The position numbers and the translations under genes were made by a program. This document shows, in pieces, positions 1,693 through 19,489 of a stretch of DNA of 23,246 nt. The stretch's first letter is position 1. Each line of letters starts with the position of its first letter. The stretch comes from a virus: positions 1 through 23,246 of the IMG/VR virus record IMGVR_UViG_3300045738_001074, one strand, 5' to 3'. Under the pieces are notes generated by a model. That model saw only the letters and a program-made list of their open reading frames with translations. It was not told the DNA's origin and did no database searches.

Positions 1693-3643
1693 TGACGCTT
1701 GGTTAGATATAGAGGTAGACGAGTCTTCATTATTCAATCCGATGGATTTTGTGATGCAGGATGACGACAACGAAGATCTATTGAAACGGCTCGCTTGGTT
1801 GCTAATGAGACCCGAATATTTTTCATTTGCCGCTAAGTATATACTAAATATCCAGCTATCCCAGTTTCAGTCGTTGCTGCTTCATGAATTATGGAACCGA
1901 AAGTTCCCCATGATTATTGGTAGTCGTGGTATGGGTAAATCTTTTATGCTTTCGGTTTACCCTCTTCTTCGTGCCTTGTTCATGCCGAAGAGACAAATCA
2001 TTATTGTTGGTGCTGCGTTCAGACAATCAAAAGTTCTTTTTGAATATATGGATACAATCTGGAAAAACGCCCCTGTTCTCAGGGATTTGTGTGCGACTGG
2101 AAGCGGACCAAAGAGAGATGTAGACAGGTGTGTGATGCATATTGGCGAAAGCCGTATTACATGCCTACCGCTTGGCGACGGAAGCAAAATCAGAGGCCAA
2201 AGAGCCAACGACATTATTGCCGATGAATTCGCCTCTATTCCTAGAGACATTTTTGAAAACGTTGTGGCTGGTTTTGCCGCTGTCGCATCCTCTCCAATTG
2301 AAAAAGTAAAGCAAAAAGCCAAAGAAAAGCTTGCTAAAGAGCTTGGCGTACCAGCCGGTAAACCGGATCCAGCATCTTGGATGGATAAGTCAAACCAGAT
2401 AATTCTTTCTGGGACAGCCTATTACGACTTTAATCATTTTGCCGAGTATTGGAAAAGATACCACGCAATTATTTCCAGCAGAGGCAACATCTCCAAGCTA
2501 CAAGAGGTGTTCGGGGGAGAGGTTCCAGAAGACTTTGATTGGACGGAATACTCTATCATACGAATGCCTGTAGACAAGCTTCCTGACGGCTTTATGGACG
2601 CGGGACAAGTAGCAAGAGCCAAAGCGACAGTACATACGGGGATTTACAACATGGAATACGGTGCGGTGTTTACAACAGATAGCCAAGGCTTCTTTAAACG
2701 TAGTCTAATAGAATCGTGCACCACTTCTCCTTCTACCCCCGTTATTCTTCCCTCTGGGGACATTTGGTTTGAGTCTTCTTTACGTGGAGAGTCTGAAAAA
2801 AAATACGTATTTGGCGTTGACCCCGCCTCTGAAGTTGATAATTTCAGTATTGTTGTTTTAGAAGTAAACGCTGATCACCGCAGGGTTGTTTACTGTTGGA
2901 CTACCACGAGACAACAGCACAAAGATCAACTTAGATCAAAAATAGTTGACGAAGATGACTTTTATTCCTACTGTGCCAAAAAGATCAGGCAGCTAATGAA
3001 GGTGTTTCCCTGTGTCGAAATAGCCTTGGATGCTCAGGGGGGCGGTATAGCGGTGATGGAGGCTCTGCACGACAAGGACAAAATAGGAGAGGGAGAATTA
3101 CCTATTTGGCCTGTTGTTGAGGATAAGTCTAAAGATACAGATGATCATGCTGGTCTTCATATTCTTAGACTTTGTCAATTTGCTAGAGCTGATTGGCTTG
3201 CTGAGGCAAACCACGGGCTGAGAAAAGATTTTGAAGATAAAATTGTGCTGTTTCCCTACTTTGACTCTGTTAGTCTGGGTATAGCTTCGGAAACGGATAA
3301 AGCGTCTGGAACACATTACGATACTCTAGAAGATTGTGTCATGGAGATAGAAGACCTAAAAGACGAATTGTCTATGATTATTATGACACAAACATCGACC
3401 GGAAGAGAAAGATGGGATACCCCCGAGGTCAAAACGGGAACGGGGAGAAAAAGCAGAATAAGAAAAGACCGCTATTCTTCTTTGATCATGGCAAACATGT
3501 CGGCTAGACTAATTTCAGTGGAAAGAGAAATGCCTAATCACGCTTTTGGCGGGTTTGCCGAACAGAACGCTTCCATGTTCTCTAATGACCAACTTTTTCA
3601 GGGGCCCGCTTGGTTTACTGATAAGATACAGAACTTATATTGA
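1667..3643 (+). CDS. terL: Terminase large subunit (ATPase-nuclease packaging motor)
   Basis: A 658-residue motor protein that translocates DNA into the prohead and cuts the concatemer. The N-terminal ATPase has Walker A GSRGMGKS at residues 85-92 and Walker B IIADE at 183-187, with the catalytic Glu187 directly after Asp186. The C-terminal RNase H-like nuclease begins with FGVDPA (Asp385) followed by the DNFSIVVLE strand, then ALDAQGGG with Asp455; a third acidic cluster lies in HYDTLEDCVMEIEDL near the C-terminus. Length is within the usual 500-700. GGAAGG at 1656-1661 supports the start. It overlaps the HExxH gene by 26 bases. The ARxKATVHTGIYNMEYGAVF stretch between the domains is typical of this protein. 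Packaging type (cos, pac or other) cannot be read from the window. Confidence 0.95.
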   Translation: MINQNQRLDDAWLDIEVDESSLFNPMDFVMQDDDNEDLLKRLAWLLMRPEYFSFAAKYILNIQLSQFQSLLLHELWNRKFPMIIGSRGMGKSFMLSVYPLLRALFMPKRQIIIVGAAFRQSKVLFEYMDTIWKNAPVLRDLCATGSGPKRDVDRCVMHIGESRITCLPLGDGSKIRGQRANDIIADEFASIPRDIFENVVAGFAAVASSPIEKVKQKAKEKLAKELGVPAGKPDPASWMDKSNQIILSGTAYYDFNHFAEYWKRYHAIISSRGNISKLQEVFGGEVPEDFDWTEYSIIRMPVDKLPDGFMDAGQVARAKATVHTGIYNMEYGAVFTTDSQGFFKRSLIESCTTSPSTPVILPSGDIWFESSLRGESEKKYVFGVDPASEVDNFSIVVLEVNADHRRVVYCWTTTRQQHKDQLRSKIVDEDDFYSYCAKKIRQLMKVFPCVEIALDAQGGGIAVMEALHDKDKIGEGELPIWPVVEDKSKDTDDHAGLHILRLCQFARADWLAEANHGLRKDFEDKIVLFPYFDSVSLGIASETDKASGTHYDTLEDCVMEIEDLKDELSMIIMTQTSTGRERWDTPEVKTGTGRKSRIRKDRYSSLIMANMSARLISVEREMPNHAFGGFAEQNASMFSNDQLFQGPAWFTDKIQNLY

Positions 3644-3674
3644 TTTAGAAGATAAGAACCGTTTTTACATAAAA

Positions 3675-3683
3675 TGTGTATAT
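3675..3683 (+). promoter_or_regulatory. TGTGTATAT motif: candidate phage promoter upstream of the glycosyltransferase gene
   Basis: TGTGTATAT lies in the 91-base gap between terL and the next gene, 60 bases before its ATG. The same core recurs in four other intergenic gaps on the same strand. A TATAAT at 3687-3692 just downstream is a separate sigma70-like -10 candidate with no clear -35. Promoter function is inferred from position and recurrence. Confidence 0.4.
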
Positions 3684-3734
3684 CAATATAATCACCAATA
3701 CAATCGTCAATGGTATTACAGGATAACAATCGTA

Positions 3735-4442
3735 ATGAAGAAGGTAGTTAGCTTTTCTATATATGGGAATGTACCTTGTTATCAGGTTGGGGCTATAATG
3801 AATATTGTAGAGGTCGCTAGGCTTCTGCCGGATTGGAAGTGCAGATTTTACACCACCGACTCCTGCACCTTTTGTAATCAGTTAGAGTATCTGGGTGCGG
3901 AAGTTGTAAGAATGAATAACTGGCCAAAAGGCAATATGTTTTGGCGTTTTTTAGCTGTTGATGATACTGATATCTGTATTATTAGAGATGCAGATTCCGT
4001 AGTAAACGAGAGAGAAAGAGAATGCATGAAAGAGTGGCTCAAGAGCGATTATCAATGGCATATCATGAGGGATAATCCTGCACATACAGGTGTCCCTATA
4101 CTGGGAGGCATGTGGGGTTACAGACGTATCGAACATGACGATTTTCCAAATAGGATAGATTTTCGCAAGAGAACGATGAGTGATTACATAGCAGAATGGA
4201 GACTTGGGAACAACTGTTCTACAGCACACTACGGTAAAGATCAGACATTTTTGAAGTGGCTATACGAAAACTTTATAAAAAAACATAGCGATATTTTTAG
4301 ACATGGCCATCAAGGACATCCGTTTCCCAAGCATCCGCAAACCAGATATGCCACCTTTGTTGGGTGCAGCGTCTTTAAGGGTCGAAACTGGAATCCGAAC
4401 GCCAAACGACTTAACAGTAAACCACCACTGGAGGTAAAATAA
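3735..4442 (+). CDS. Putative glycosyltransferase (GT-A-like, DxD motif)
   Basis: A 235-residue protein. The start at ATG 3735 is chosen because the reading frame upstream of it (open to 3546) lies within terL and its 3' spacer, and AGGA is at 3720-3723. Features seen: an N-terminal beta-strand KKVVSFSIYG, a second strand with FYTTD, and IIRDADSVVNERE with DxD at residues 85-87, which in GT-A enzymes holds the metal-nucleotide-sugar. Next is HIMRDNPAH at about 109-117, then ILGGMWG, and a late DQTFL. This arrangement (RDADS, E.W, H.MRD.P.H, GGMWG, DQ.FL) recurs in bacterial and phage proteins usually annotated as glycosyltransferases. Substrate and acceptor are unknown; sugar decoration of capsid, phage DNA or host surface are all possible. 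It stands alone between terL and portal with its own upstream motif, and ends with TAATG overlapping the portal start. Confidence 0.7.
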   Translation: MKKVVSFSIYGNVPCYQVGAIMNIVEVARLLPDWKCRFYTTDSCTFCNQLEYLGAEVVRMNNWPKGNMFWRFLAVDDTDICIIRDADSVVNERERECMKEWLKSDYQWHIMRDNPAHTGVPILGGMWGYRRIEHDDFPNRIDFRKRTMSDYIAEWRLGNNCSTAHYGKDQTFLKWLYENFIKKHSDIFRHGHQGHPFPKHPQTRYATFVGCSVFKGRNWNPNAKRLNSKPPLEVK

Positions 4443-8692: not shown

Positions 8693-8768
8693 GTTCCTAA
8701 TTAAACACTTTAGGGAACCGTAAACCACCCTAATCTTTCAAGAGTATGGTAAACGGGTACTTTTGAAG
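8693..8768 (+). promoter_or_regulatory. Structured leader of the major capsid gene (two potential hairpins)
   Basis: The 95-base gap before the capsid gene lacks the TGTGTAT motif but can fold. GTTCC (8693-8697) pairs with GGAAC (8714-8718), extended by TAA/TTA across a bulged G. TTCAAGAGTA (8737-8746) pairs completely, with one G-T, with TACTTTTGAA (8758-8767) around an 11-base loop, ending four bases before the AGGAG at 8772-8776. Such a 5' hairpin could protect a highly expressed mRNA or mark a processing site; this is inference. Confidence 0.4.
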
Positions 8769-8783
8769 AACAGGAGATAGAAA

Positions 8784-9788
8784 ATGTCAAGAAAAGAAAG
8801 ACCTAGCCCTGAATTTATCGAATTGCTGAAGCGATCTGGCGATTCCGATAAATCCATTGCTATTCAGGCCCAGAGAGAGATCGCTAAAGCACTCGAACTA
8901 CCCTTACGTAAGGGTGTCGTATACGGCGATATCGTCGGCGGTATTTTTGAGGCTATGCCTCTTGAACCGGGTGCAACCCCTGAGTTCCCATTGGACCTTT
9001 TGGCCCCAGGAACCGAAATTGATCACGTCGCATTCACCAACCCCGGCAACGGACGCATTCCAGAGCGTCATGTCGAAGGTGATTACGTCATGATTAACAC
9101 TTATGGCATCACAAGTGCGATTGACTTCCTACTTAAGTATGCCCGTGAAGCTAACTGGAACGTTGTTGCAAGAGCCATGCAGGTTCTTGAATCTTCCTTC
9201 GTGAAGAAAATCAACGACGATGGTTGGCACACACTTCTAGCTGCTGCCGTTGACCGTAATATTTTGGTCTACGATGCAGACGCTGGTGCTGGCCAGTTCA
9301 CAAAGAGACTGGTTAGTCTTATGAAAACTGTTATGCGTAGAAACGGTGGTGGTAATAGTGTTACTGCTCCGGGTCGCTTAACAGATCTTTATCTATCCCC
9401 AGAAGCTATCGAAGATATTCGTAACTGGGGTATTGATCAGTTGGACGAAGTTTCACGACGTGAAATTTATGTCGCCGCTGATGAAGGTGGGCCTCTCACC
9501 AGAGTCTTTGGTGTCAATCTTCACGATGTATTCGAATTTGGTGCAAGCCAAGAATACCAATCGTACTTCACCAGCGATCTTAGCGGCTCGCTCGCTTCGG
9601 GCGACGTTGAACTTGTTGTCGGTATTGATCAGGGTGCAAGCGATAGCTTTGTTATGCCTGTCAAGAAGGATGTTGAGATCTTCGAAGACGAATCTCTTCA
9701 TCGACACCAACGACAAGGCTACTACGGATGGGCCGAATTGGGCTTTGGTGTTCTCGATAACCGAAGAATTATCGCTGGCTCGTTCTAA
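8784..9788 (+). CDS. Major capsid protein (HK97-like fold expected)
   Basis: A 334-residue protein with a strong AGGAG seven bases before ATG, located after protease-scaffold and decoration genes and followed by a strong terminator. Sequence hallmarks: an N-terminal helical segment, FPLDLLAPGTEIDHVAF and ERHVEGDYVMINTYGI in the first third, and a long spine-like helix (AIDFLLKYAREANWNVVARA). Further on are the GRLTDLYLSPEAIEDIRNWG segment and a C-terminal EIFEDESLHRHQRQGYYGWAELGFGVLDNRRI, typical of major capsid proteins that end in a P/A-domain strand. Whether the N-terminus is removed by the protease cannot be told. The assignment combines recognisable motifs with position, length and expression signals. 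Confidence 0.88.
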   Translation: MSRKERPSPEFIELLKRSGDSDKSIAIQAQREIAKALELPLRKGVVYGDIVGGIFEAMPLEPGATPEFPLDLLAPGTEIDHVAFTNPGNGRIPERHVEGDYVMINTYGITSAIDFLLKYAREANWNVVARAMQVLESSFVKKINDDGWHTLLAAAVDRNILVYDADAGAGQFTKRLVSLMKTVMRRNGGGNSVTAPGRLTDLYLSPEAIEDIRNWGIDQLDEVSRREIYVAADEGGPLTRVFGVNLHDVFEFGASQEYQSYFTSDLSGSLASGDVELVVGIDQGASDSFVMPVKKDVEIFEDESLHRHQRQGYYGWAELGFGVLDNRRIIAGSF

Positions 9789-9819
9789 GAATGAGATAGT
9801 AATAGTCCTAATAAGGAAA

Positions 9820-9848
9820 AGTCGCCTCGTAATGGGGCGGCTTTTTTT
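9820..9848 (+). terminator. Intrinsic terminator after the major capsid gene
   Basis: A nine-pair stem runs from 9820 to 9842 (AGTCGCCTC pairing with GGGGCGGCT, two T-G wobbles) around the loop GTAAT, and runs directly into seven T (9842-9848) followed by ATTATTT. It is the strongest intrinsic terminator in the window and closes the head transcription unit 31 bases after the capsid stop codon. Confidence 0.88.
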
Positions 9849-9854
9849 ATTATT

Positions 9855-9863
9855 TGTGTATAG
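9855..9863 (+). promoter_or_regulatory. TGTGTATAG motif: candidate phage promoter upstream of the surface-protein block
   Basis: This copy begins seven bases after the terminator T-run and 60 bases before ATG 9915. It is followed by a perfect inverted repeat TAATGG-AAT-CCATTA at 9866-9880 and a related TGTGTACAC at 9882-9890. Terminator followed at once by start signal fits a boundary between transcription units. Function is inferred. Confidence 0.5.
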
Positions 9864-9914
9864 AGTAATGGAATCCATTATTGTGTACACGAATCAATCA
9901 TAGGAGTATAGAAC

Positions 9915-10334
9915 ATGACCGCAATGTCAAATTACATGGAAAACAAGCTTATTAACCATATCGTGAGAGATACGGCTTGGACGGCCCCCTCGGTTGTTTA
10001 TGTTGGGCTAGTGGGGCTTTATGATGCCGCTGAATTGGAGGCTGGCACCATCACGAAAGAAATTTCGGGGAATGCCTACGCTAGAGTTAGCGTCAAGGGC
10101 GATGCCAAGTGGACCGGCGGGTCGGCCACAAACGGATTAACCGATAACGTTGACGCAATCGAGTTTGTTACTGCTGCTGGTGGTGACTGGGAACACGTTA
10201 GCGGACTGTTTTTGTCTAACGCGTCTACTGCTGGAGATGTTATCCTTTATGGAGCATTAACGTCGGTCAAGTTTGTAGAAGACGGAGACCAGTTCGTTAT
10301 TGCTGCTGGTGATTTAGATATTACCTTTGCCTAA
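9915..10334 (+). CDS. Small virion structural protein (phage tail-fibre-like/head-fibre-like family)
   Basis: A 139-residue protein with AGGAG just upstream. It matches a widespread small phage family with the pattern SNYLENKLLNHI.R.T....P..VYVGL near the N-terminus, an ISGNAYAR segment, and a C-terminal LYGALTS.K.V..GD.F.IAAGDLDIT. All of these are present here (SNYMENKLINHIVRDTAW; YVGLVGLYDA; GNAYARVSVKG; LYGALTSVKFVEDGDQFVIA). These proteins are annotated as tail fibre or virion structural proteins; their precise location is unsettled. It is the first gene of the surface-protein block after the terminator. ATG 9915 is favoured by spacing; ATG 9924 is an alternative that loses three residues. 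Confidence 0.7.
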   Translation: MTAMSNYMENKLINHIVRDTAWTAPSVVYVGLVGLYDAAELEAGTITKEISGNAYARVSVKGDAKWTGGSATNGLTDNVDAIEFVTAAGGDWEHVSGLFLSNASTAGDVILYGALTSVKFVEDGDQFVIAAGDLDITFA

Positions 10335-10352
10335 CATATAGGAGAATAGGTA

Positions 10353-11990
10353 ATGACTCAATATGCTTACCCGAATGCCATGGAATTGGATCTTGGCGGC
10401 TGGGATGATCAAGACGACACAATCTACAGTTTATACGCAGCTATAGATGATACTCAACCACTGACTAGTGGTTCTGATTCTACTTATATATATTCGGAAG
10501 ACGAATGGGGCACCGAACATATCTGCACGATACCTCTGGGTGATACAATCACAAACCCGGGTCCATCGGCTTCTAGTCATATAGTGTACTTTAGGGTCAA
10601 GGGTACTGATGACTCCGGTTGGAGTACGATTCCCGATATAACAGTGGATCTGGTCGAGGGTGCGACAGATAACGACGATGGCACCGTTCATGCTACGACA
10701 ACTTTTACACCTACTTCTTCTTTTGCCGACCGTAGTCTAGTGCTTGATTCCACAGAGTCGGGCAATATAAGCGATTATACCGATCTTCAGCTACGCTTTA
10801 CCCGTGCGATGGGTAGCGGTGATTCGGAAATGGCTTTTGTTTCTCAGGCGTATTTTGCGACCCCTGACTCAGCCACTCCTGATTTTCGGGTGGGTGACAG
10901 AATCAAGGAAACTGGGACTGGCACAACAGGTGATATCAATCTGGCTGGTGCGGCCACGGGATATCAGACTTTTGTGGCTGGTGTTGGTGATGAAAATGTT
11001 ACCTATTATGTCATCGAGGATGCAAATGGAACCGCTTGGGAGACTGGGTTAGGAAAGGTTACTGATGCTAGCCCCGATACCCTGTCTAGAGATAGAATAA
11101 TAGCAAACAGCTCGGGAACCACAAGTGCAATTACGCTTTCTGGCGGTACACACACTATTTTTTGCGGGTCTCCGTCTCGAACTGAAATGTCGGACATTCA
11201 GATCAAAACGACAACCTATACGGTTACTCAGGCCGACTCTACAATACTGTGTGATTCTGCTGGCGGTGCTTTTACCGTAACTATGCCGACCGCCGGGCAA
11301 TTTTATGTGGGCCTAAAATTCCTGATCAAGAAGTCGGTGTTCGACACGAATGTAGTAACCATAGCTAGCAGCGGTAACGACTTTGAATTTGAAGACAGCC
11401 GCAAAATCACTAGCTATGGCACAGATACCCTCAAGCTGCATCTTGCTGGAGACTTTTACGAACTTACGTGTATCAGGGTTGGCACTGATTTCATGTGGCT
11501 CACAACCAACAAATACCTAGCACCTCATGTGGCTATGATCACTCAAACCGTTTCCCAGACCATCGCGAACGAAACAAGTACTCAGGTGACTTTTGACACA
11601 AATACTATCGAAAAAGGGCCGGACGCAGATCATGCAAATAATAAAATTACTATCAAGCGAGCTGGAGTTTACAATCTATCCGCTTATCTTAGGTTTTCTA
11701 GCATGGACACTTCCACTACCGGTGCTGTCGTTAAAATTGGAGTAACACCAGACGGTGGATCTATAGTTTATTATAAGACGGGAGCTGCCGCAAACTGGGC
11801 CTATGTCGGACTCGAAGATAAGAGACCAACACCGACCACTTCGGTTCTAAGAGAATGTGCGGTTGATGATGTGATTACATTGTATACCTATCAAGATGAC
11901 CAGAGTTCAGAAGTCACGCTAGTCAACGATGGCACCCTCACCCCATATGCCGATTGGCAAGCTATTTTATCTGTTCAGGAGGTTAGATAA
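10353..11990 (+). CDS. Modular fibre/adhesin protein with C1q-like C-terminal domain
   Basis: A 545-residue multi-domain protein. Residues about 1-180 form a beta-rich module (AMELDLGGWD, LYAAIDD, SHIVYFRVKG, DYTDLQLRFTRA) of a type repeated in phage structural proteins. Residues about 182-280 match a common phage attachment module: DRIKETGTGTTGDINLAG, then YYVIEDANGTAWETGLGKV and RDRIIANSSGT. Residues about 285-390 contain TVTQADSTILCDSAGGAF with TVTMPTAGQFYVGLKFLIKK, another phage tail-associated beta module. Residues about 393-545 look like a C1q/TNF jelly roll: ITIKRAGVYNLSAYLRF and a final TPYADWQAILSVQ. Such C-terminal trimeric jelly rolls commonly bind surface glycans. Virion location (head fibre, neck whisker or tail fibre) is unknown. 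The end overlaps the next start (TAATG). Confidence 0.75.
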   Translation: MTQYAYPNAMELDLGGWDDQDDTIYSLYAAIDDTQPLTSGSDSTYIYSEDEWGTEHICTIPLGDTITNPGPSASSHIVYFRVKGTDDSGWSTIPDITVDLVEGATDNDDGTVHATTTFTPTSSFADRSLVLDSTESGNISDYTDLQLRFTRAMGSGDSEMAFVSQAYFATPDSATPDFRVGDRIKETGTGTTGDINLAGAATGYQTFVAGVGDENVTYYVIEDANGTAWETGLGKVTDASPDTLSRDRIIANSSGTTSAITLSGGTHTIFCGSPSRTEMSDIQIKTTTYTVTQADSTILCDSAGGAFTVTMPTAGQFYVGLKFLIKKSVFDTNVVTIASSGNDFEFEDSRKITSYGTDTLKLHLAGDFYELTCIRVGTDFMWLTTNKYLAPHVAMITQTVSQTIANETSTQVTFDTNTIEKGPDADHANNKITIKRAGVYNLSAYLRFSSMDTSTTGAVVKIGVTPDGGSIVYYKTGAAANWAYVGLEDKRPTPTTSVLRECAVDDVITLYTYQDDQSSEVTLVNDGTLTPYADWQAILSVQEVR

Positions 11991-12490
11991 TGGCCAGTAT
12001 AGTAATTTCACCAGAAAACAACATGCTTGAGTTAGTCTCTCTTGCTGGAGGAAGTATGGAGCAAACCGTTTATTCGGTTGATACTTTATATGTGTCGGAC
12101 GTGTCCCAAGAAGACTTAGATGCGGCCTTGGCTCTGTATTCTGGTGACTTGGAAACATATTTTCTAACACCATTACGCACAGCGGTAAAAAACAGACCGA
12201 CCCGAGATGCAAATTTTTATATTTCACAATCCTACCCCTCTTATAATAGGGAGTTTTTGTCGGCCCTATGGGAAGAAGCTAGAGCCGATGGGATGGTAAA
12301 TAGGGTTAATTACATAAGGCAATTAATGACATGGGTTTCATCGGTTGTTTCATATACAATAACTCAGGAAGACGCTCTTGACTTAGAAACGGATCCAGAC
12401 ATAATAAGAAGCTTCTCTATAGATTTTAGCATCTTTGATGCCACAAATCCAAACATTACAATAAAAGCGGCATTGGAAATATTAGATTAG
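11990..12490 (+). CDS. Hypothetical protein in the surface-protein block
   Basis: A 166-residue protein with a perfect AGGAGGT at 11975-11981; its ATG overlaps the stop of the fibre gene, so the two are translationally coupled. No family was recognised. It is acidic, cysteine-free and mostly helical in the centre (QEDLDAALALYSGDLETYFL; MVNRVNYIRQLMTWVSSVV), ending with FDATNPNITIKAALEI. It is unlike the beta-rich, Gly/Ser/Thr-rich proteins on either side. A fibre-specific chaperone or a connector subunit would fit the coupling and composition, but neither is shown by motif. Confidence 0.65.
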   Translation: MASIVISPENNMLELVSLAGGSMEQTVYSVDTLYVSDVSQEDLDAALALYSGDLETYFLTPLRTAVKNRPTRDANFYISQSYPSYNREFLSALWEEARADGMVNRVNYIRQLMTWVSSVVSYTITQEDALDLETDPDIIRSFSIDFSIFDATNPNITIKAALEILD

Positions 12491-12499
12491 GGGGCTAGT

Positions 12500-13906
12500 A
12501 TGACTTATTCGGGTTCTCCTTATAGTTCCATTCCTTACTCCGGCTCCCTTTCGGCCGGAGAAACGATTAGTGGGGCTGCTTCATTATCTGCAACAGCGTC
12601 AGTTTCTACCGCTGGTCGAGTTATAAAAAAGGGTGCCGCTTCCCTCACGGCGACCGCGACCACTACAGCCGCTGGTCGAGTTATAAAAAAGGGTGCCGCT
12701 TCCCTCACGGCGACCGCGACCACTACAGCCGCTGGTCGAGTTATAAAAAAGGGTGCCGCTTCCCTCACGGCGACCGCGATCACCGCAATCACTGCCACAC
12801 GAAGGAGATCAGGAGCCTCATCATGGTCTGCTAGTGCGAGCGTATCTTCTGTTGGTACCCCCAGAAGGTTTGGAGCGACATCATGCTCGGCTACTGCTAC
12901 AATGACTACCGCTGGTACCCGACGGAGATCGGGGGCCGTTTCTTGTTCCGCTAGTGCTACCGTTTCTACTGTTGGTACTCGTGTTCACGTGGCTTCTGCC
13001 TCGCTCTCCGCTAGTGCTACTGTTTCTACTGTCGGTACTCGAAGGCAGTTTGGAGCGACTTCTTGTTCTGCTAGTGCCACGATGTCCACTGTTGGCATCC
13101 GTAGACAACATGGAGCCGTGTCGTGTTCTGCTACCGCTACCATGTCTACCATTGGCATCCGTAGACAATTTGGAGCCGCATCACTTTCCGCAACCGCAAC
13201 CTTGGCCGCCGCGGGGTCTGTTGGAGGCACGGTGAGCGGAGCCGCTAGCTTAATTGCAACCGCGTCCGTTGCCACCGCCGGAAAGATTAAGCGGCTTGGT
13301 GCTAGTGCAATTACCGCGACCGCAGTACTATCATCCTTGAGTACAGTTAAAAAGCTTGGTTCTGCCACCATTTCTGCTACCGCGTCCCTAGCTGCTGAAG
13401 GGTCTGTAGGGGGAGCGGTTAGCGGGGCCGCCAGCTTAAACGCAACAGCGACTATTGCCTCTACCCCCTTAGTAAAAAGAGGCGGTGCGTCTGCAATTTC
13501 TTGTAGTGGAACGGTGACTACTTCTGGATCTGTTAAAAAGTATGGTGCTAGTGGTATTTCTGCAAGTGCCCAGACGTCTGTTTCTGGAACAGTAAAGAAA
13601 CTAGGTGGCTCATCTCTAAGTGCTTCTGGAGCCCTGTCTGCTTCGGGATCATGTATAAGAGGGGGAGCAGCACCGTTGCTTGCTACAGCCGTCTTAACGG
13701 CGACGGGCGGAACGGGTGGTGCGGTAACGGGGGCTACTAGCCTATCGGCTTCAGCTACCCTGAACGCTATTGGAAAAATAGATCAATTTCCAGTTGTGGC
13801 AGAGTTTATTGTGTATATTAATAGGGATGTTGAATATGGCGTTAATATTAACAGTTTATACGATCAGACGGCAAATATAGAAACCTTTAGAGAGTTTGTA
13901 GGATAA
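12500..13906 (+). CDS. Repetitive Ala/Ser/Thr-rich fibre-like protein (twenty 20-22-residue repeats)
   Basis: A 468-residue protein whose residues 25-430 are twenty tandem repeats of 20 residues (three are 22) with pattern G-A-x-S-h-S-A-T-A-x-h-(S/T)-(T/A)-x-G-x-h-(K/R)-(K/R)-x. Seventeen repeats are 20 long; the 22-residue repeats end in GSVGG(T/A)VS or GTGGAVT. Three patches differ in character: RVIKK-type, RRQF/RRRS-type with Cys in several copies, and VKKL-type. The alternation of small and hydrophobic residues with a turn-like G and a basic pair suggests a beta-solenoid or fibre, with basic residues in a line. The N-terminus (MTYSGSPYSSIPYSGSLS) and a non-repeat C-terminus (PVVAEFIVYINRDVEYGV...) may be the attachment ends. 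The exact function is unknown; a virion filament or adhesin is inferred from the neighbours. Confidence 0.7.
   Translation: MTYSGSPYSSIPYSGSLSAGETISGAASLSATASVSTAGRVIKKGAASLTATATTTAAGRVIKKGAASLTATATTTAAGRVIKKGAASLTATAITAITATRRRSGASSWSASASVSSVGTPRRFGATSCSATATMTTAGTRRRSGAVSCSASATVSTVGTRVHVASASLSASATVSTVGTRRQFGATSCSASATMSTVGIRRQHGAVSCSATATMSTIGIRRQFGAASLSATATLAAAGSVGGTVSGAASLIATASVATAGKIKRLGASAITATAVLSSLSTVKKLGSATISATASLAAEGSVGGAVSGAASLNATATIASTPLVKRGGASAISCSGTVTTSGSVKKYGASGISASAQTSVSGTVKKLGGSSLSASGALSASGSCIRGGAAPLLATAVLTATGGTGGAVTGATSLSASATLNAIGKIDQFPVVAEFIVYINRDVEYGVNINSLYDQTANIETFREFVG
12611..12779 (+). repeat. Perfect 60-bp tandem repeat, about 2.8 copies
   Basis: Copies at 12611-12670, 12671-12730 and 12731-12779 are identical base for base, while neighbouring 60-base units coding for similar 20-residue repeats have diverged in the third codon positions. 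This points to recent duplication or gene conversion within the repetitive gene and a likely site of copy-number change by slippage or recombination. Confidence 0.95.
13810..13818 (+). promoter_or_regulatory. Intragenic TGTGTATAT: possible additional promoter-like motif
   Basis: The motif context TTGTGTATATTA matches the intergenic copies closely (compare 17337 onward) but falls inside the end of the repeat-protein gene, 102 bases before ATG 13912. It could drive the downstream connector genes or be chance; coding constraint (FIVYIN) explains part of it. Confidence 0.25.
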
Positions 13907-13911
13907 CAACT

Positions 13912-14220
13912 ATGGCAGCAAATGAAATACATGTCAATGATGTTGGTACGACTTTTCAGTTAACTTTTAAAGACGATGGTGCTATTGTTGATATTAGTTC
14001 CGCTTCTGCTGTGCAGATACTACTTATGGGTCCAAACGATACGGCGGTTACAAAGACCGCGACACTTGTGACCGATGGCACTGACGGTAAAGCAAAATAC
14101 GTAATAGTGGCAGATGATTTGGGTACTGCGGGCACTTGGAAAATTCAAGGCAAGGTTACCTTTTCAACCACTATATATCATAGTGATATTCATAATTTTA
14201 CTGTTTACAAAAATCTGTAG
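13912..14220 (+). CDS. BppU N-terminal-like / virion structural protein
   Basis: A 102-residue protein. The sequence (VNDVGTTFQLTFKDDGAIVD; MGPNDTAVTKTATLV; GTDGKAKYVIVADDL; GTWKIQGKVTFS.. ending HNFTVYKNL) follows the small beta-sandwich family related to the N-terminal domain of the lactococcal baseplate protein BppU, which occurs in many phages as a stand-alone protein. In BppU the domain anchors receptor-binding protein to the virion, so here it may act as an adaptor for the fibre proteins encoded just upstream; that link is inference. AGGA about 10 bases upstream supports the start. Confidence 0.65.
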   Translation: MAANEIHVNDVGTTFQLTFKDDGAIVDISSASAVQILLMGPNDTAVTKTATLVTDGTDGKAKYVIVADDLGTAGTWKIQGKVTFSTTIYHSDIHNFTVYKNL

Positions 14221-14244
14221 GATGTTTTTTACGGGGGTATATAT

Positions 14245-14748
14245 ATGTGGACCACAGATCTAGTCTTGATGCTTAGAACATTAATAGGCGACCTAGACTC
14301 AACTAAATATGCAGACACCAGACTACAGCAGGTGTTAGTTATCGGTGCGTACAATGTCAATAACGACGCTCCTTTTAACAACAATTATGTAATAGACGTA
14401 AACGCCTTGACAATTGCTCCGGACCCAATAACAAAAGACGATACGGATTTTAATGTTTTAACGATTTATAAGAGTGCCTGTATTCTTCTTGGAAGCGAAG
14501 TAAAGACAGAATCTTCTAATGCGATATCTATCAAAGACGGCCCTTCTTCTATTGATCTAAGAGGCGTTAGTTCAAGCCTGCATGTTATGTACAAAGACTT
14601 CTGTGAAAAATACGACGAGATTCTTAGAAAATACAACTACGAAAAAGGAAGTGGAGACGGCACGCCCGCTGGCGTTGCTGTGCTTGGCCCCTACAGTCCC
14701 GCAAGCTGGGGTGTTGGCTATAGTAATCGTCGTGGCGGATATTTTTAA
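14245..14748 (+). CDS. Putative head-tail connector (adaptor) protein
   Basis: A 167-residue protein. The N-terminal MWTTDLVLMLRTLIGDLDSTKYADTRLQQVLVIGAYNV resembles the opening helix-loop-helix of adaptor proteins that bind under the portal. The middle has IAPDPITKDDTDFNVLTIYKSACILLGSE and IKDGPSSIDLRGVSSSL, a pattern I associate with neck/connector proteins of environmental phages; the C-terminal tail is Gly-rich and probably disordered. It is the first of the neck genes. The ribosome site is unusual: a GGGGG run at 14233-14237 rather than AGGAG, after a T-rich spacer. Adaptor identity is probable, not proven. Confidence 0.6.
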   Translation: MWTTDLVLMLRTLIGDLDSTKYADTRLQQVLVIGAYNVNNDAPFNNNYVIDVNALTIAPDPITKDDTDFNVLTIYKSACILLGSEVKTESSNAISIKDGPSSIDLRGVSSSLHVMYKDFCEKYDEILRKYNYEKGSGDGTPAGVAVLGPYSPASWGVGYSNRRGGYF

Positions 14749-15752: not shown

Positions 15753-16353
15753 CATTAACATAAAAATAATGGAGTCTGATGACGATATCCGAAAGCAGAT
15801 AAATGCAGCTTTAGTGGATCAGGTCACCAAAAGGCTAGCCAAGTCAACTAGGAGAATAAAAGACGCAATAATCCCGCTAGTTAGGGGGGCATTACTAAGC
15901 AGCCCCGAAATATCTTCTCTAAAAGGCGGGGTTTTGCAGGCTGAGTTTGGTTTGGGGTCCGATCCGACCGCCCAGATTATTTCTGCGATAACGGGGAGCT
16001 TGAATGTCAGGCTTCAGAGGGTGAATAAAAATTTAGATGGAGGCTTTACACTGGAAATGCAGCCCACAAACTTTTCCAACCTCCTTTCTCTTTCGTCGGC
16101 CGAACAGCAGATAGTGGGCGGAAGTATCCCGTGGCTTAGTTGGCTACTCACAGCTGGTGATTCTATTCTCATTGCTAACTTTGGCGTTGAGTTTGGAAGC
16201 TACGGAAGGACGGGGAGAGCTAGAATGTCGGGTAATTTTGCACCCTACAAGGTACACAGTTCTTTTTCTGGAACCCCCGATAATAATTTTATCACTAGGG
16301 CCATAGAAATGATTTCCCCCCAGATAAAAGATATTATAAGAAAGGAATTATGA
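15745..16353 (+). CDS. Putative neck / tail-completion protein (HK97 gp10-like role)
   Basis: A 202-residue protein. ATG 15745 is preferred: it sits in ATGGTTAA overlapping the upstream stop, with GGAA nine bases before; ATG 15769 is a possible shorter start, and in-frame sequence upstream of 15745 is inside the previous gene. Hallmarks: an N-terminal basic helix (QVTKRLAKSTRRIKDAIIPL), then a GGVLQAEFGLGSDPTAQI segment, IPWLSWLLTAGDSILIANFG, and a C-terminal YGRTGRARM with FSGTPDNNFITRAIE. The PWL.WLL..G and GT.DNNFITRA patterns recur in phage neck proteins next to adaptor and stopper genes. Its role would be to join the head completion complex to the tail. Confidence 0.6.
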   Translation: MVNINIKIMESDDDIRKQINAALVDQVTKRLAKSTRRIKDAIIPLVRGALLSSPEISSLKGGVLQAEFGLGSDPTAQIISAITGSLNVRLQRVNKNLDGGFTLEMQPTNFSNLLSLSSAEQQIVGGSIPWLSWLLTAGDSILIANFGVEFGSYGRTGRARMSGNFAPYKVHSSFSGTPDNNFITRAIEMISPQIKDIIRKEL

Positions 16354-16354
16354 G

Positions 16355-17329
16355 ATGGTAGGAGGCTCAAACACAAAACTCAACGTCCCCTCAGATCGTA
16401 AGGTTAGCGATGCTACTATATCTGAGATTTTGTTAGATAATTTTGTCAATTTTTATGATTGGGGTTTTTTAGACGTTGGGCAGTTTTACACTATTAGTAT
16501 TCCCCAGTCTGGTATTTACGGAGGAGACCGTCATAAGCTGCGGGTTGTAGACTCCCCCAATTACAATGCTGGTCAGGCTTGGGAAGGATACCGCCAAAAC
16601 TGGGTGTGGGAATCCGGTGTGGACGGAACTACCGAACAACCCATACAGATTTCAGGCGTTTTTGTCGACGATGCGTTTTATGCTACGGGAAATGTAACAA
16701 AACCATTTTACGTAGACTATCCAAACGGAAGAGTTATGTTTGACACAGCTATATCAAGCACAAGTTCCGTACATCTAGAGTATAGTCACAAGTGGGTGCA
16801 GGTTTTTCCAGCCAAAGGTATTCCTTGGTTCCAGCAGTTACAACAGCGGTCTCTTAGAAGCGATGATGGTTTTCAGGTCGCGGGTTCTGGCGGATGGATG
16901 TTATTGGGGCAAACTAGGGTACAATTGCCCGCCATTGCTGTGGAGGTTGTTCCTGCCGTATCCACAAAACCCTATGCTTTGGGCGGAGGCCAATGGGTAA
17001 ATACGGATATTGTTTTTTATATTATGACAGAAAATCATTGGGAATGTACTAATATTCTCGATACGATTATTCAACAAAATGACCGCAGTTTAACGCTTTT
17101 TAATCCCACTCAGGTAGCTATTTCCGGTGCGTCACCCTTCAACTATAGGAATGAACTCCGCTATTTGCATTCTTATGCTAGCGGCTTGTATCCAAACTTG
17201 GTCGAGTATCACTCGTGGGACAGAAGAAAATGCTTTATAAATCAATCCAGAGGGGGAAATATAGTAGAATTGTCCCCCGAATTATATATGGGTACCGCAC
17301 GATGTAGTACGGAAGTTAAGCCCTTTTAA
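16355..17329 (+). CDS. Virion structural protein of the neck region
   Basis: A 324-residue protein with AAGGA about nine bases upstream of ATG 16355. Conserved-looking segments include ILLDNFVNFYDWGFLDVGQF, GIYGGDRHKLR, GQAWEGYRQNWVWESG and YVDYPNGRVMFDTAI, and a C-terminal RGGNIVELSPELYMGTARCS. I associate this arrangement with uncharacterised structural proteins encoded just before the tail tube gene in environmental phages. A tail terminator or a neck-surface protein are candidates. It is the last gene before a candidate transcription boundary. Confidence 0.55.
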   Translation: MVGGSNTKLNVPSDRKVSDATISEILLDNFVNFYDWGFLDVGQFYTISIPQSGIYGGDRHKLRVVDSPNYNAGQAWEGYRQNWVWESGVDGTTEQPIQISGVFVDDAFYATGNVTKPFYVDYPNGRVMFDTAISSTSSVHLEYSHKWVQVFPAKGIPWFQQLQQRSLRSDDGFQVAGSGGWMLLGQTRVQLPAIAVEVVPAVSTKPYALGGGQWVNTDIVFYIMTENHWECTNILDTIIQQNDRSLTLFNPTQVAISGASPFNYRNELRYLHSYASGLYPNLVEYHSWDRRKCFINQSRGGNIVELSPELYMGTARCSTEVKPF

Positions 17330-17338
17330 CAGTTTTTT
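17315..17338 (+). terminator. Weak terminator-like hairpin with T-run before the tail tube gene
   Basis: GTTAAG (17315-17320) pairs with TTTAAC (17325-17330, one G-T pair) around CCCT, followed by AG and six T (17333-17338). The stem is short and AT-rich and includes the stop codon of the previous gene, so termination would be partial at best. Confidence 0.35.
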
Positions 17339-17347
17339 GTGTATATA
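17338..17347 (+). promoter_or_regulatory. TGTGTATATA motif: candidate phage promoter upstream of the tail tube gene
   Basis: The motif begins at the last T of a six-T run, 54 bases before ATG 17392. A nine-pair hairpin (17351-17372, loop ACCA, including T-G pairs) starts four bases after it, so a transcript starting there would open with a 5' stem-loop. Function is inferred from recurrence of the motif. Confidence 0.5.
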
Positions 17348-17391
17348 TTATTAGTCTTTACCAGAGGACTAAAAACAACAGGAGAATATAA

Positions 17392-18393
17392 ATGGCTCGT
17401 AACCAAAGAATATTTTATGCCTGCCAAGCCGTAATCATCGTTGGTGAGGGAGCTACAGTTTCCTCAGCCGGTGTGGTCAAAGGTCTTCAGAGTGTTGGGA
17501 TGAGTTCCAACTTTTCTCTCGATCAGGTCTTTGAAATGGGGCAGCTCGAAATTTATGAAAACATCGAAGATGTTGCTGATATCGAAGTAACCCTTGAAAA
17601 GGTTATCGACGGTGAAAAGCTCATCTGGGATCTTACTAGTGCTGGAGCATGTAAAACTGATATTGTTGCTGCTTCAAAAGCAAAATGCGATGTGTATCTA
17701 GGTATTTTTGACGATGGCGTGTCTAACGCTACTGGTGTTCCGCGAAATGTTTGCTGGAACTCTGGTATGTATACGTCTTCCATCTCTTATAGCTATAGTA
17801 TCGATGGTAGTGCTACAGAATCTGTGACCTTAGTTGGTAATGATAGATTCTGGAATTCGGTCACAAATAGGACCGGCACCACCGCTGGTACTAGATGGAG
17901 TTCTAATCCTACTGCAGCGTTCAGTGGTAGCGATACTCCAAAATCCGGCGTTGTTCGTCGTAACGAGGTGGACATGATTGGGTCGGAATTGCCGGATGTT
18001 GTCAAAGGACAATTGGGTGATGATGCTGTCGGAAAAGGTGGAAATTACCACATCCAAAGTGTTAGTGTTAGTACTGACATGAGTCAGGAAAACATTATGG
18101 AACTGGGCCGATTCGGACCGTATCACAGGTTTGCATCTTTCCCAATCGAAGTTACCTGCGAGTTTGAAGTTATCGCTACTTCTGGTGACCTCCAGACGGT
18201 TTCCGGTGACGGTCCGAACCTTACGGGTGAAGAGATTGTCATTAGGGATGCCGCCGGTACCGTTCTCAACTTAGGGCTTAAGAACAAGCTATCGTCGGTT
18301 TCTTATTCCGGTGCAGACACCGGTGGTGGAAACGCTACAGTTAGCTATTCGTATAGCAACTATAACTCGTTGACAGCAGATGGTGGTAGTTAA
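17392..18393 (+). CDS. Major tail tube protein
   Basis: A 333-residue protein with AGGAG upstream. The N-terminal third (VVKGLQSVGMSSNFSLDQVF; EMGQLEIYENIEDVADIEVT; LEKVIDG) is a recognisable tail-tube signature: a beta-strand leading into a polymerisation loop and the IEVTLEK strand. Two later segments (SYSYSIDGSATESVTLVGND and NIMELGRFGPYHRFASFPIE) also suit tube proteins, and the C-terminus is Gly/Ser/Tyr-rich (NATVSYSYSNYNS). The protein would stack as hexameric rings around the tape measure. It is the only tube/sheath-type gene here; no sheath is seen, so a non-contractile tail is likely. Its own motif and leader hairpin suggest strong expression. Confidence 0.8.
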   Translation: MARNQRIFYACQAVIIVGEGATVSSAGVVKGLQSVGMSSNFSLDQVFEMGQLEIYENIEDVADIEVTLEKVIDGEKLIWDLTSAGACKTDIVAASKAKCDVYLGIFDDGVSNATGVPRNVCWNSGMYTSSISYSYSIDGSATESVTLVGNDRFWNSVTNRTGTTAGTRWSSNPTAAFSGSDTPKSGVVRRNEVDMIGSELPDVVKGQLGDDAVGKGGNYHIQSVSVSTDMSQENIMELGRFGPYHRFASFPIEVTCEFEVIATSGDLQTVSGDGPNLTGEEIVIRDAAGTVLNLGLKNKLSSVSYSGADTGGGNATVSYSYSNYNSLTADGGS

Positions 18394-18421
18394 TAAACTG
18401 TATTAGCTTAGGATTAGGATC

Positions 18422-19489
18422 TTGGATGATATTTACTACGAGAAAATTCTAAATAGAATAATTCAAGGTCGTCTACGCGTAAAGCTGGGCGATCTTGTTT
18501 TATTCATTTCTGAACCTTCCAGAGATGTACTGGAAGAATCTTATGATATATGGCAGGAGTACTATGATCTTTCGTATTACTCCGGCGATGTTTATTCAAA
18601 GGACGAAATTCTAGAGATTTTACTAGAGAATGACATGTGGGACCCTCACGACGATCAAAACGCTGATCAGATGGAGGAACAAATAGAAGAGCTGAAAGTA
18701 CAGGCTTTTCAAGCCCACTTCAATGTAAAGAAGTTGGTCGGAATAAAAAGACAGATACGACACGTTGAGAAACTAATGGTGGACCTTAGAATGAAAAGTA
18801 AGCAACTCGATCACGTAACCTGTTCAGGGCTTGCTAATTTTGCACGAAAAAGCTGGTTAGTTTCACGAACCACTAAGCTGGCAGACGGTTCTTTATTTGA
18901 CTTCGGGACACATTCATTGTCCACTATTATGGATCTTTATGCCCATCACGCAATTGAGCCCGACACTTTTAGAAGGATAGCCCGTACAAATCCGTGGCGT
19001 GCAATGTGGGGGTCGGGCAAAGCGAGCGGAATGGTTTTTGGCAAACCTTCTTGCGATCTAGACACAAATCAACTAAGTCTATGTTCTTTTTCCAGTATGT
19101 ATGATAACGTTTTCGAAAGTCCAGACGCCCCAAAAGAATCGATAATTGAGGACAACGATTGCTTAGACGGTTGGTTTATTGTACAAAAAAGAAAATACGA
19201 GCAACAAAAGAAAGAGATGGAGAAAAATCAGGCGGTTAGCAATAGTAAAATAGCAAGTTCCGACGAGGTGTTCCTGATGGCTGACGATCAGTACGAGGCT
19301 CAAGAAATATACGCTATGAACGACCCGCTAGCAAGACAAACTATAAAGCAGAGACAAGCTCAAATTAAGAATGCGGACGGAGAACTTATACATCTCAGAG
19401 ATCTTAAAGATGTCAAAGAAGATAACTATATGGCCCGAGTTGAGGCTCAGAAACAGAAGATGGGACAGATGTCCAAAGGAGGAAGATAA
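18422..19489 (+). CDS. Putative tail assembly protein (TTG start)
   Basis: A 355-residue protein. The start is TTG 18422, supported by AGGA at 18410-18413 eight bases upstream; no in-frame ATG occurs until about residue 78, so a later start would remove the conserved-looking N-terminus (GRLRVKLGDLVLFISEPSRD). The first 150 residues are helical and acidic; the middle has FARKSWLVSRTTKLADG and RRIARTNPWRAMWGSGK; the last 100 are charged and coiled-coil-like. Position between tube and tape measure genes, and two similarly charged genes after it, point to the tail chaperone slot, but no frameshift arrangement is visible. TAATG couples it to the next gene. Confidence 0.6.
   Translation: MDDIYYEKILNRIIQGRLRVKLGDLVLFISEPSRDVLEESYDIWQEYYDLSYYSGDVYSKDEILEILLENDMWDPHDDQNADQMEEQIEELKVQAFQAHFNVKKLVGIKRQIRHVEKLMVDLRMKSKQLDHVTCSGLANFARKSWLVSRTTKLADGSLFDFGTHSLSTIMDLYAHHAIEPDTFRRIARTNPWRAMWGSGKASGMVFGKPSCDLDTNQLSLCSFSSMYDNVFESPDAPKESIIEDNDCLDGWFIVQKRKYEQQKKEMEKNQAVSNSKIASSDEVFLMADDQYEAQEIYAMNDPLARQTIKQRQAQIKNADGELIHLRDLKDVKEDNYMARVEAQKQKMGQMSKGGR

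Follow-up and report, generated by a model that had tools for sequence, protein, structure and literature searches.

A period-20 repeat protein encoded close to a gp80-family bead gene as the probable string of a beaded phage fibre

A window of 23,246 bases from an IMG/VR record, which covers the structural gene region of a tailed phage, encodes a repeat protein of 468 aa (positions 12500–13906, + strand). We consider it probable, at roughly two chances in three, that a beaded virion appendage of the GP4 fibre I type has this ‘rope’ protein as its string, with gp80 dimers bound along the protein’s units. The protein consists of regular repeats, the number of its units changes between relatives, and it is tightly linked to a gp80-family gene across unrelated phages. 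The string role is suggested by this linkage, by the period and by the known bead: since a period-20 protein lies beside gp80 in many unrelated phages, it is probably the string that threads the beads of the fibre.

Residues 25–430 of the repeat protein (12572–13789, +) form exactly twenty tandem units with the consensus GAASLSATATVSTAGxVKKx, seventeen of them 20 residues long and three 22 (at residues 225, 287 and 389), which bears out a preliminary description of this DNA that had counted twenty regular repeats of 20–22 residues. Self-similarity at lag 20 reaches z = 20.8 against residue shuffles while the next best lag reaches 3.9, so the period does not arise from composition. The units show an alternating pattern of small and hydrophobic residues, with two strands predicted in each. 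The array is flanked by two elements that had been overlooked. The N-terminal cap (residues 1–24, MTYSGSPYSSIPYSG..., 12500–12571, +) is the most conserved stretch of alignment A1, and a short motif like it occurs in L002, L109, L112 and gp51 of phage Venkman. The C-terminal array (residues 431–468, 13790–13903, +) has a period of 10 residues (EFIVYINRDV/EYGVNINSLY/DQTANIETFR), with a lag-10 z of 3.3 in the window protein, 7.0 in L020, 7.6 in L109 and 10.9 in L149. The protein at L149:4619–5506 ends in an array of the form NTWTxVSxxS and the window protein in one of the form xFxxxINxxx; that a 10-residue array closes two otherwise unlike string families suggests an end structure common to both.

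Part of the array has been duplicated recently. TRF reports a tandem of period 60 at 12609–12783 (+; 2.9 copies, 99% match), within which 12611–12779 is an identical stretch of 169 bp. This covers about 2.8 copies, and full 60-nt identity is found only between units 2 and 3, so the three identical units described earlier are not all complete. The other adjacent pairs of units share 37–77% of their DNA and non-adjacent pairs 49% on average, from which it follows that the duplication is recent relative to the remaining units. Changes in unit number are also seen in a clade sample of 80 relatives from uncultured viral contigs, retrieved with the capsid protein. The repeat protein is present in L019–L024, L102, L109 and L116, at lengths of 262, 365, 445, 525 and 587 aa (L019 is incomplete); the protein at L123, considered as a further homologue, is a different repeat protein. 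L023 and L021, whose capsid proteins are identical, differ by 80 aa, equal to four units, in what looks like a duplicated block; whole units are thus being gained and lost. Change by whole units among relatives of 262–587 aa agrees with the earlier proposal of a length-variable component of a virion appendage.

The caps are conserved among the clade relatives; two features previously given a structural role, basic pairs and cysteines, are not. A basic residue does occupy unit position 18 in 11 of the 20 units and position 19 in 12, but basic pairs are sparse in L021 and L023, so a charged stripe is not conserved. Cysteine stands at position 5 in units 6, 7, 9 and 10, as had been noticed. Leu or Ile is found there in 15 of the 16 remaining units and Leu, Ile, Val or Phe in L020; because Cys replaces Leu/Ile and is absent from this position in L020, a conserved disulfide ladder is rejected.

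The window has its terminase gene at 1667, its portal gene at 4442 and its capsid gene at 8784; a gene resembling a tape measure, judged by eye, runs from about 21026 to the window end. By gene order the uncultured phage is long-tailed and probably a siphophage. Between terminase and portal, 3546–4442 appears glycosyltransferase-like by eye. The major capsid gene (8784–9788, +; phrog_2522, E 1.8e-5) is the upstream border of an accessory region, whose downstream border is a conserved gene at 14245–14748 (+), assigned to head completion by position; this gene marks the far end of the region whether or not a locus carries the module. This interval (8784–14748 in the window, and L025–L098 among relatives) is variable: depending on the relative it holds single proteins of about 1,500–2,900 aa, nothing, or the gp80/repeat module.

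The module includes the gene at 9915–10334 (+), 2.2 kb upstream of the repeat gene, whose product belongs to PF23140, ‘Podophage GP4 fiber I protein gp80’, above the Pfam cut-off (E 2.5e-31; PDB 8JOU chain a, E 6.6e-7). A protein of 545 aa follows (10353–11990, +), the probable fibre or adhesin of the module by its position and its variability between relatives; its C-terminus looks jelly-roll-like by eye only, and Pfam and PHROG searches gave no family match. Directly upstream of the repeat gene lies an accessory module gene (11990–12490, +; 166 aa), present in L019–L021, L023 and L024. A small Ig-like protein of 102 aa (13912–14220, +; phrog_3285, minor tail, E 3.2e-5; BppU_N, 0.0067, sub-threshold) is encoded directly 3′ of the repeat protein, an order seen at every clade locus with both genes (L019 ends inside the repeat gene). 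From this gene order, a position of the appendage at the neck or collar is plausible. In L022, a run at 16217–19480 between the fibre genes and the repeat gene looks by eye like genes for glycan modification, of sulfotransferase-like and pyruvyltransferase-like kinds, and in L109 paralogous genes for proteins of 259–276 aa (2231–3010 and 8763–9593) stand on either side of the fibre cassette, as they do in L116.

Within the clade, repeat and gp80 genes are both present at 10 loci and both absent from 15 (Fisher p 3e-7, uncorrected for relatedness), and on the capsid tree the pair must have been gained or lost at least twice. gp80 is absent throughout two relatives of 145 and 148 kb that have no repeat gene. 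Outside the clade, 28 loci from viral contigs and from four records of named phages were examined starting from repeat proteins; gp80 was found at 23 of them, and at several the two genes touch. All five loci lacking it have less than 2.8 kb of sequence upstream. In the reverse test, 80 viral IMG/VR loci were selected by gp80 alone, using narrow gp80 alignments and ignoring repeats, and a neighbour was called period-20 at z above 6. Such a gene was present at 75 of the 80 (position +1 in 69, +2 in 6), although the loci are close kin of one another, so that the 75 are not independent events; of the 579 genes at the remaining offsets between −8 and +8, 3 had period 20. The lengths of 54 of 67 distinct gp80 partners fall at 15 or 16 modulo 20, a 20-residue ladder that is partly due to shared ancestry.

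Named phages of different genera provide a more independent check. Period 20 is found in the gene adjacent to gp80 in MW202462, C72C1, MEP401, PVJ1, POI1126, MW202879, Atu_ph08 and BcepIL02, in the preceding gene in Oline, and near gp80 in Venkman and Slicko01; CRP-4 and Lietuvens have a weak period. The neighbours in phiM5, Octadecabacter DB2 and Xanthomonas X1 lack the period or fall below threshold, those in prophages L225, L227 and L228 have none or a weak one, and in the Bdellovibrionales (L225, L227) the genes next to gp80-like ones have none. The period is retained with very different residues in BcepIL02 gp56 (z 8.2), MEP401 (10.1) and POI1126 (6.6), and in further unlike sequences from Slicko01 (11.9), Oline gp32 (9.3) and MW202879 (11.2). 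Mycobacteriophage Oline gp32 (L133:7789–8949), a minor tail protein, has its period over residues 30–215 and adjoins the gp80-like gp33, relatives of which are carried by about 390 mycobacteriophage records. In Alishewanella phage Slicko01 a protein of 1,843 aa (L242:9570–15101, minus strand) has a C-terminal period of 20 beside gp80-like and Ig-like genes.

Fibre I of the Ralstonia phage GP4 (Zheng et al. 2023, J Mol Biol 435:168258) is the closest known system, as the product of 9915–10334 belongs to the same bead family as its gp80 (PDB 8JOU). The 8JOU entry contains ten gp80 chains, and the GP4 paper reportedly describes five gp80 dimers linked by an elongated rope protein. In BcepIL02 and POI1126, near relatives of GP4, gp80 is likewise followed by a period-20 gene, just as the window module has a period-20 partner; in BcepIL02 a gp80 homologue comes first, then the period-20 gp56, then a Gp77 fibre–tail adaptor that matches 8JOU chain D. 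We propose such a partner as a feature of the GP4 fibre I type; the proposal is made here and does not come from the GP4 paper. BcepIL02 gp56 belongs to phrog_19041, ‘virion structural protein’, and resembles the window protein as a period-20 neighbour of gp80, while a sequence match between the two is undetectable; by eye gp56 has about 11 degenerate units against the 20 Ala/Ser/Thr units of the window string. GP4 is a podophage, whereas the window phage is long-tailed by gene order, and no equivalent of the adaptor Gp77 is recognisable in the window; the Ig-like protein of 13912–14220 was tried as one and rejected (hhalign probability 0.5% against Gp77 homologues). We therefore claim a GP4-like way of working but not full membership of the type. 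Published work describes GP4 gp80 as a dimer that forms a fibril between adhesin and tail collar (PMC13243795).

On the preferred string-and-bead reading, multiple gp80-family subunits would bind along the 20-residue units, probably through pairing with the alternating β-strand in each unit. Alone the chain would be flexible and lack a stable fold; with gp80 bound it would become a beaded fibre. The N-terminal motif and the C-terminal 10-residue array may act as caps that join the string to virion and adhesin, a role that a fused adhesin or baseplate domain could take in other phages. Adhesin-like domains are fused N-terminally to the homologues L104–L108, and a period-20 stretch occurs in a protein encoded after baseplate J in Psychrobacillus phage PVJ1 and, weakly, in Sporosarcina phage Lietuvens (annotated DUF2313); these suggest that the string can join tip or anchor directly, so the place it occupies on the virion may vary from phage to phage. 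Evolution of fibre length would proceed through gain or loss of whole units, as at 12609–12783. More tentatively, each unit might bind one gp80 subunit, two per dimer, in which case the number of encoded units would directly set how many beads the fibre has and how long it is, and many kinds of phage would tune their reach by duplicating units within one gene, on a modular string-and-bead principle; we lean somewhat against this.

The chief alternative is a self-standing fibre shaft, in which the units fold by themselves as a β-solenoid or trimeric β-roll rod, while gp80 is no more than an adaptor or cap inherited along with them. The alternating pattern, with its two predicted strands per unit, would suit such a shaft, and the adhesin-like domain of L104–L108 gives those homologues a stalk-like look. 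Structure prediction, proposed earlier as a check, gave the monomer an AlphaFold2 pLDDT of 51 and a homologue with a 40-sequence alignment one of 42, without confident support for a solenoid or fibre fold. Foldseek of the low-confidence model against PDB returned nothing significant (best E 0.041, TM 0.10), and for a β-solenoid or a trimeric β-roll shaft (YadA-like heads) there was neither confident prediction nor fold match. AlphaFold2 tends to over-predict solenoids for repeats, including confident false ones (PMC11795689), so low confidence on the window protein is mildly informative; by itself it fits a string that needs gp80 and proves little. A generic shaft, moreover, needs no one specific small partner across so many unrelated phages. 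The period behind the rod suggested in the preliminary description is retained, but the self-standing rod is not supported, and nothing observed pointed to glycan binding by the repeat itself; we regard the shaft as unlikely.

The repeat gene, compared with 50,697 phage records by tblastn and blastn, gave no match, Pfam and PHROGs gave nothing above cut-off for the protein, and the string-protein sequence was not found in PDB or Pfam; for a string protein of the BcepIL02 type, too, there was no matching PDB chain. Bflower_3 (PF21786, 6-fold beta flower) scores 15 bits on the window protein against a cut-off of 34 and just passes on L104 (35.8 bits), possibly through composition. The PDB profile search yielded weak hits only, to the ‘Gene 5 protein’ of a phage (E 0.009), which were judged to reflect chance or composition. 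The view that no described fibre has exactly this repeat thus holds for the sequence, for which there is no Pfam or PHROG model, but not for the partner gene, which leads to GP4 fibre I.

A role as chaperone, scaffold or length ruler in assembly of the gp80 fibre, with the protein absent from the finished virion, is very unlikely. One published result does favour it and counts against the string: in JC1, a near relative of GP4, mass spectrometry found the gp80 homologue (gp53) and a Gp77 homologue in virions, while the period-20 gp54 was undetected in the virion proteome (PMC9144972, Table 6). Against it stand the homologues fused to adhesin-like domains, the weak period in the DUF2313-annotated Lietuvens protein after baseplate J, and BcepIL02 gp56, annotated as virion-associated and placed in the virion structural family phrog_19041. 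That the protein merely decorates capsid or neck, its linkage to gp80 reflecting a common variable accessory region, is also very unlikely: the capsid-to-head-completion interval is variable in the clade, but the linkage extends across podo-, sipho- and myophages and is kept elsewhere in the genome, as in the position after baseplate J.

On the preferred reading, what could only be called an ‘Ala/Ser/Thr repeat protein’ becomes a testable device for encoding length, present in phages of very different hosts, including mycobacteria and Bacillus relatives. The string of beaded fibres of the gp80 type would thereby gain a candidate gene family, one that has no entry as such in Pfam, PHROGs or PDB. 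Two published systems invite comparison. Anabaena phage A-1(L) carries at its neck a bead-chain fibre that is flexible and beaded, as the proposed appendage would be (PMC10966104). It consists, however, of about 14 gp81 trimers arranged head to tail with no string protein, not of gp80-type dimers, and its published gene content sets it apart; that A-1(L) has a gp80 of its own is a coincidence of numbering (PMC10966104). In Alishewanella phage LSH1, gp34–gp36 comprise a gp80-like, a small Ig-like and a large protein that are jointly present or absent, and a C-terminal stretch of the large protein models poorly and may be repetitive (PMC13243795). The large protein differs in its lyase-like N-terminal domain, the module follows the lysis genes, and its authors proposed no string role. 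The period of 20 in the Slicko01 homologue (z 11.9) may explain the poorly modelled stretch of LSH1 gp34.
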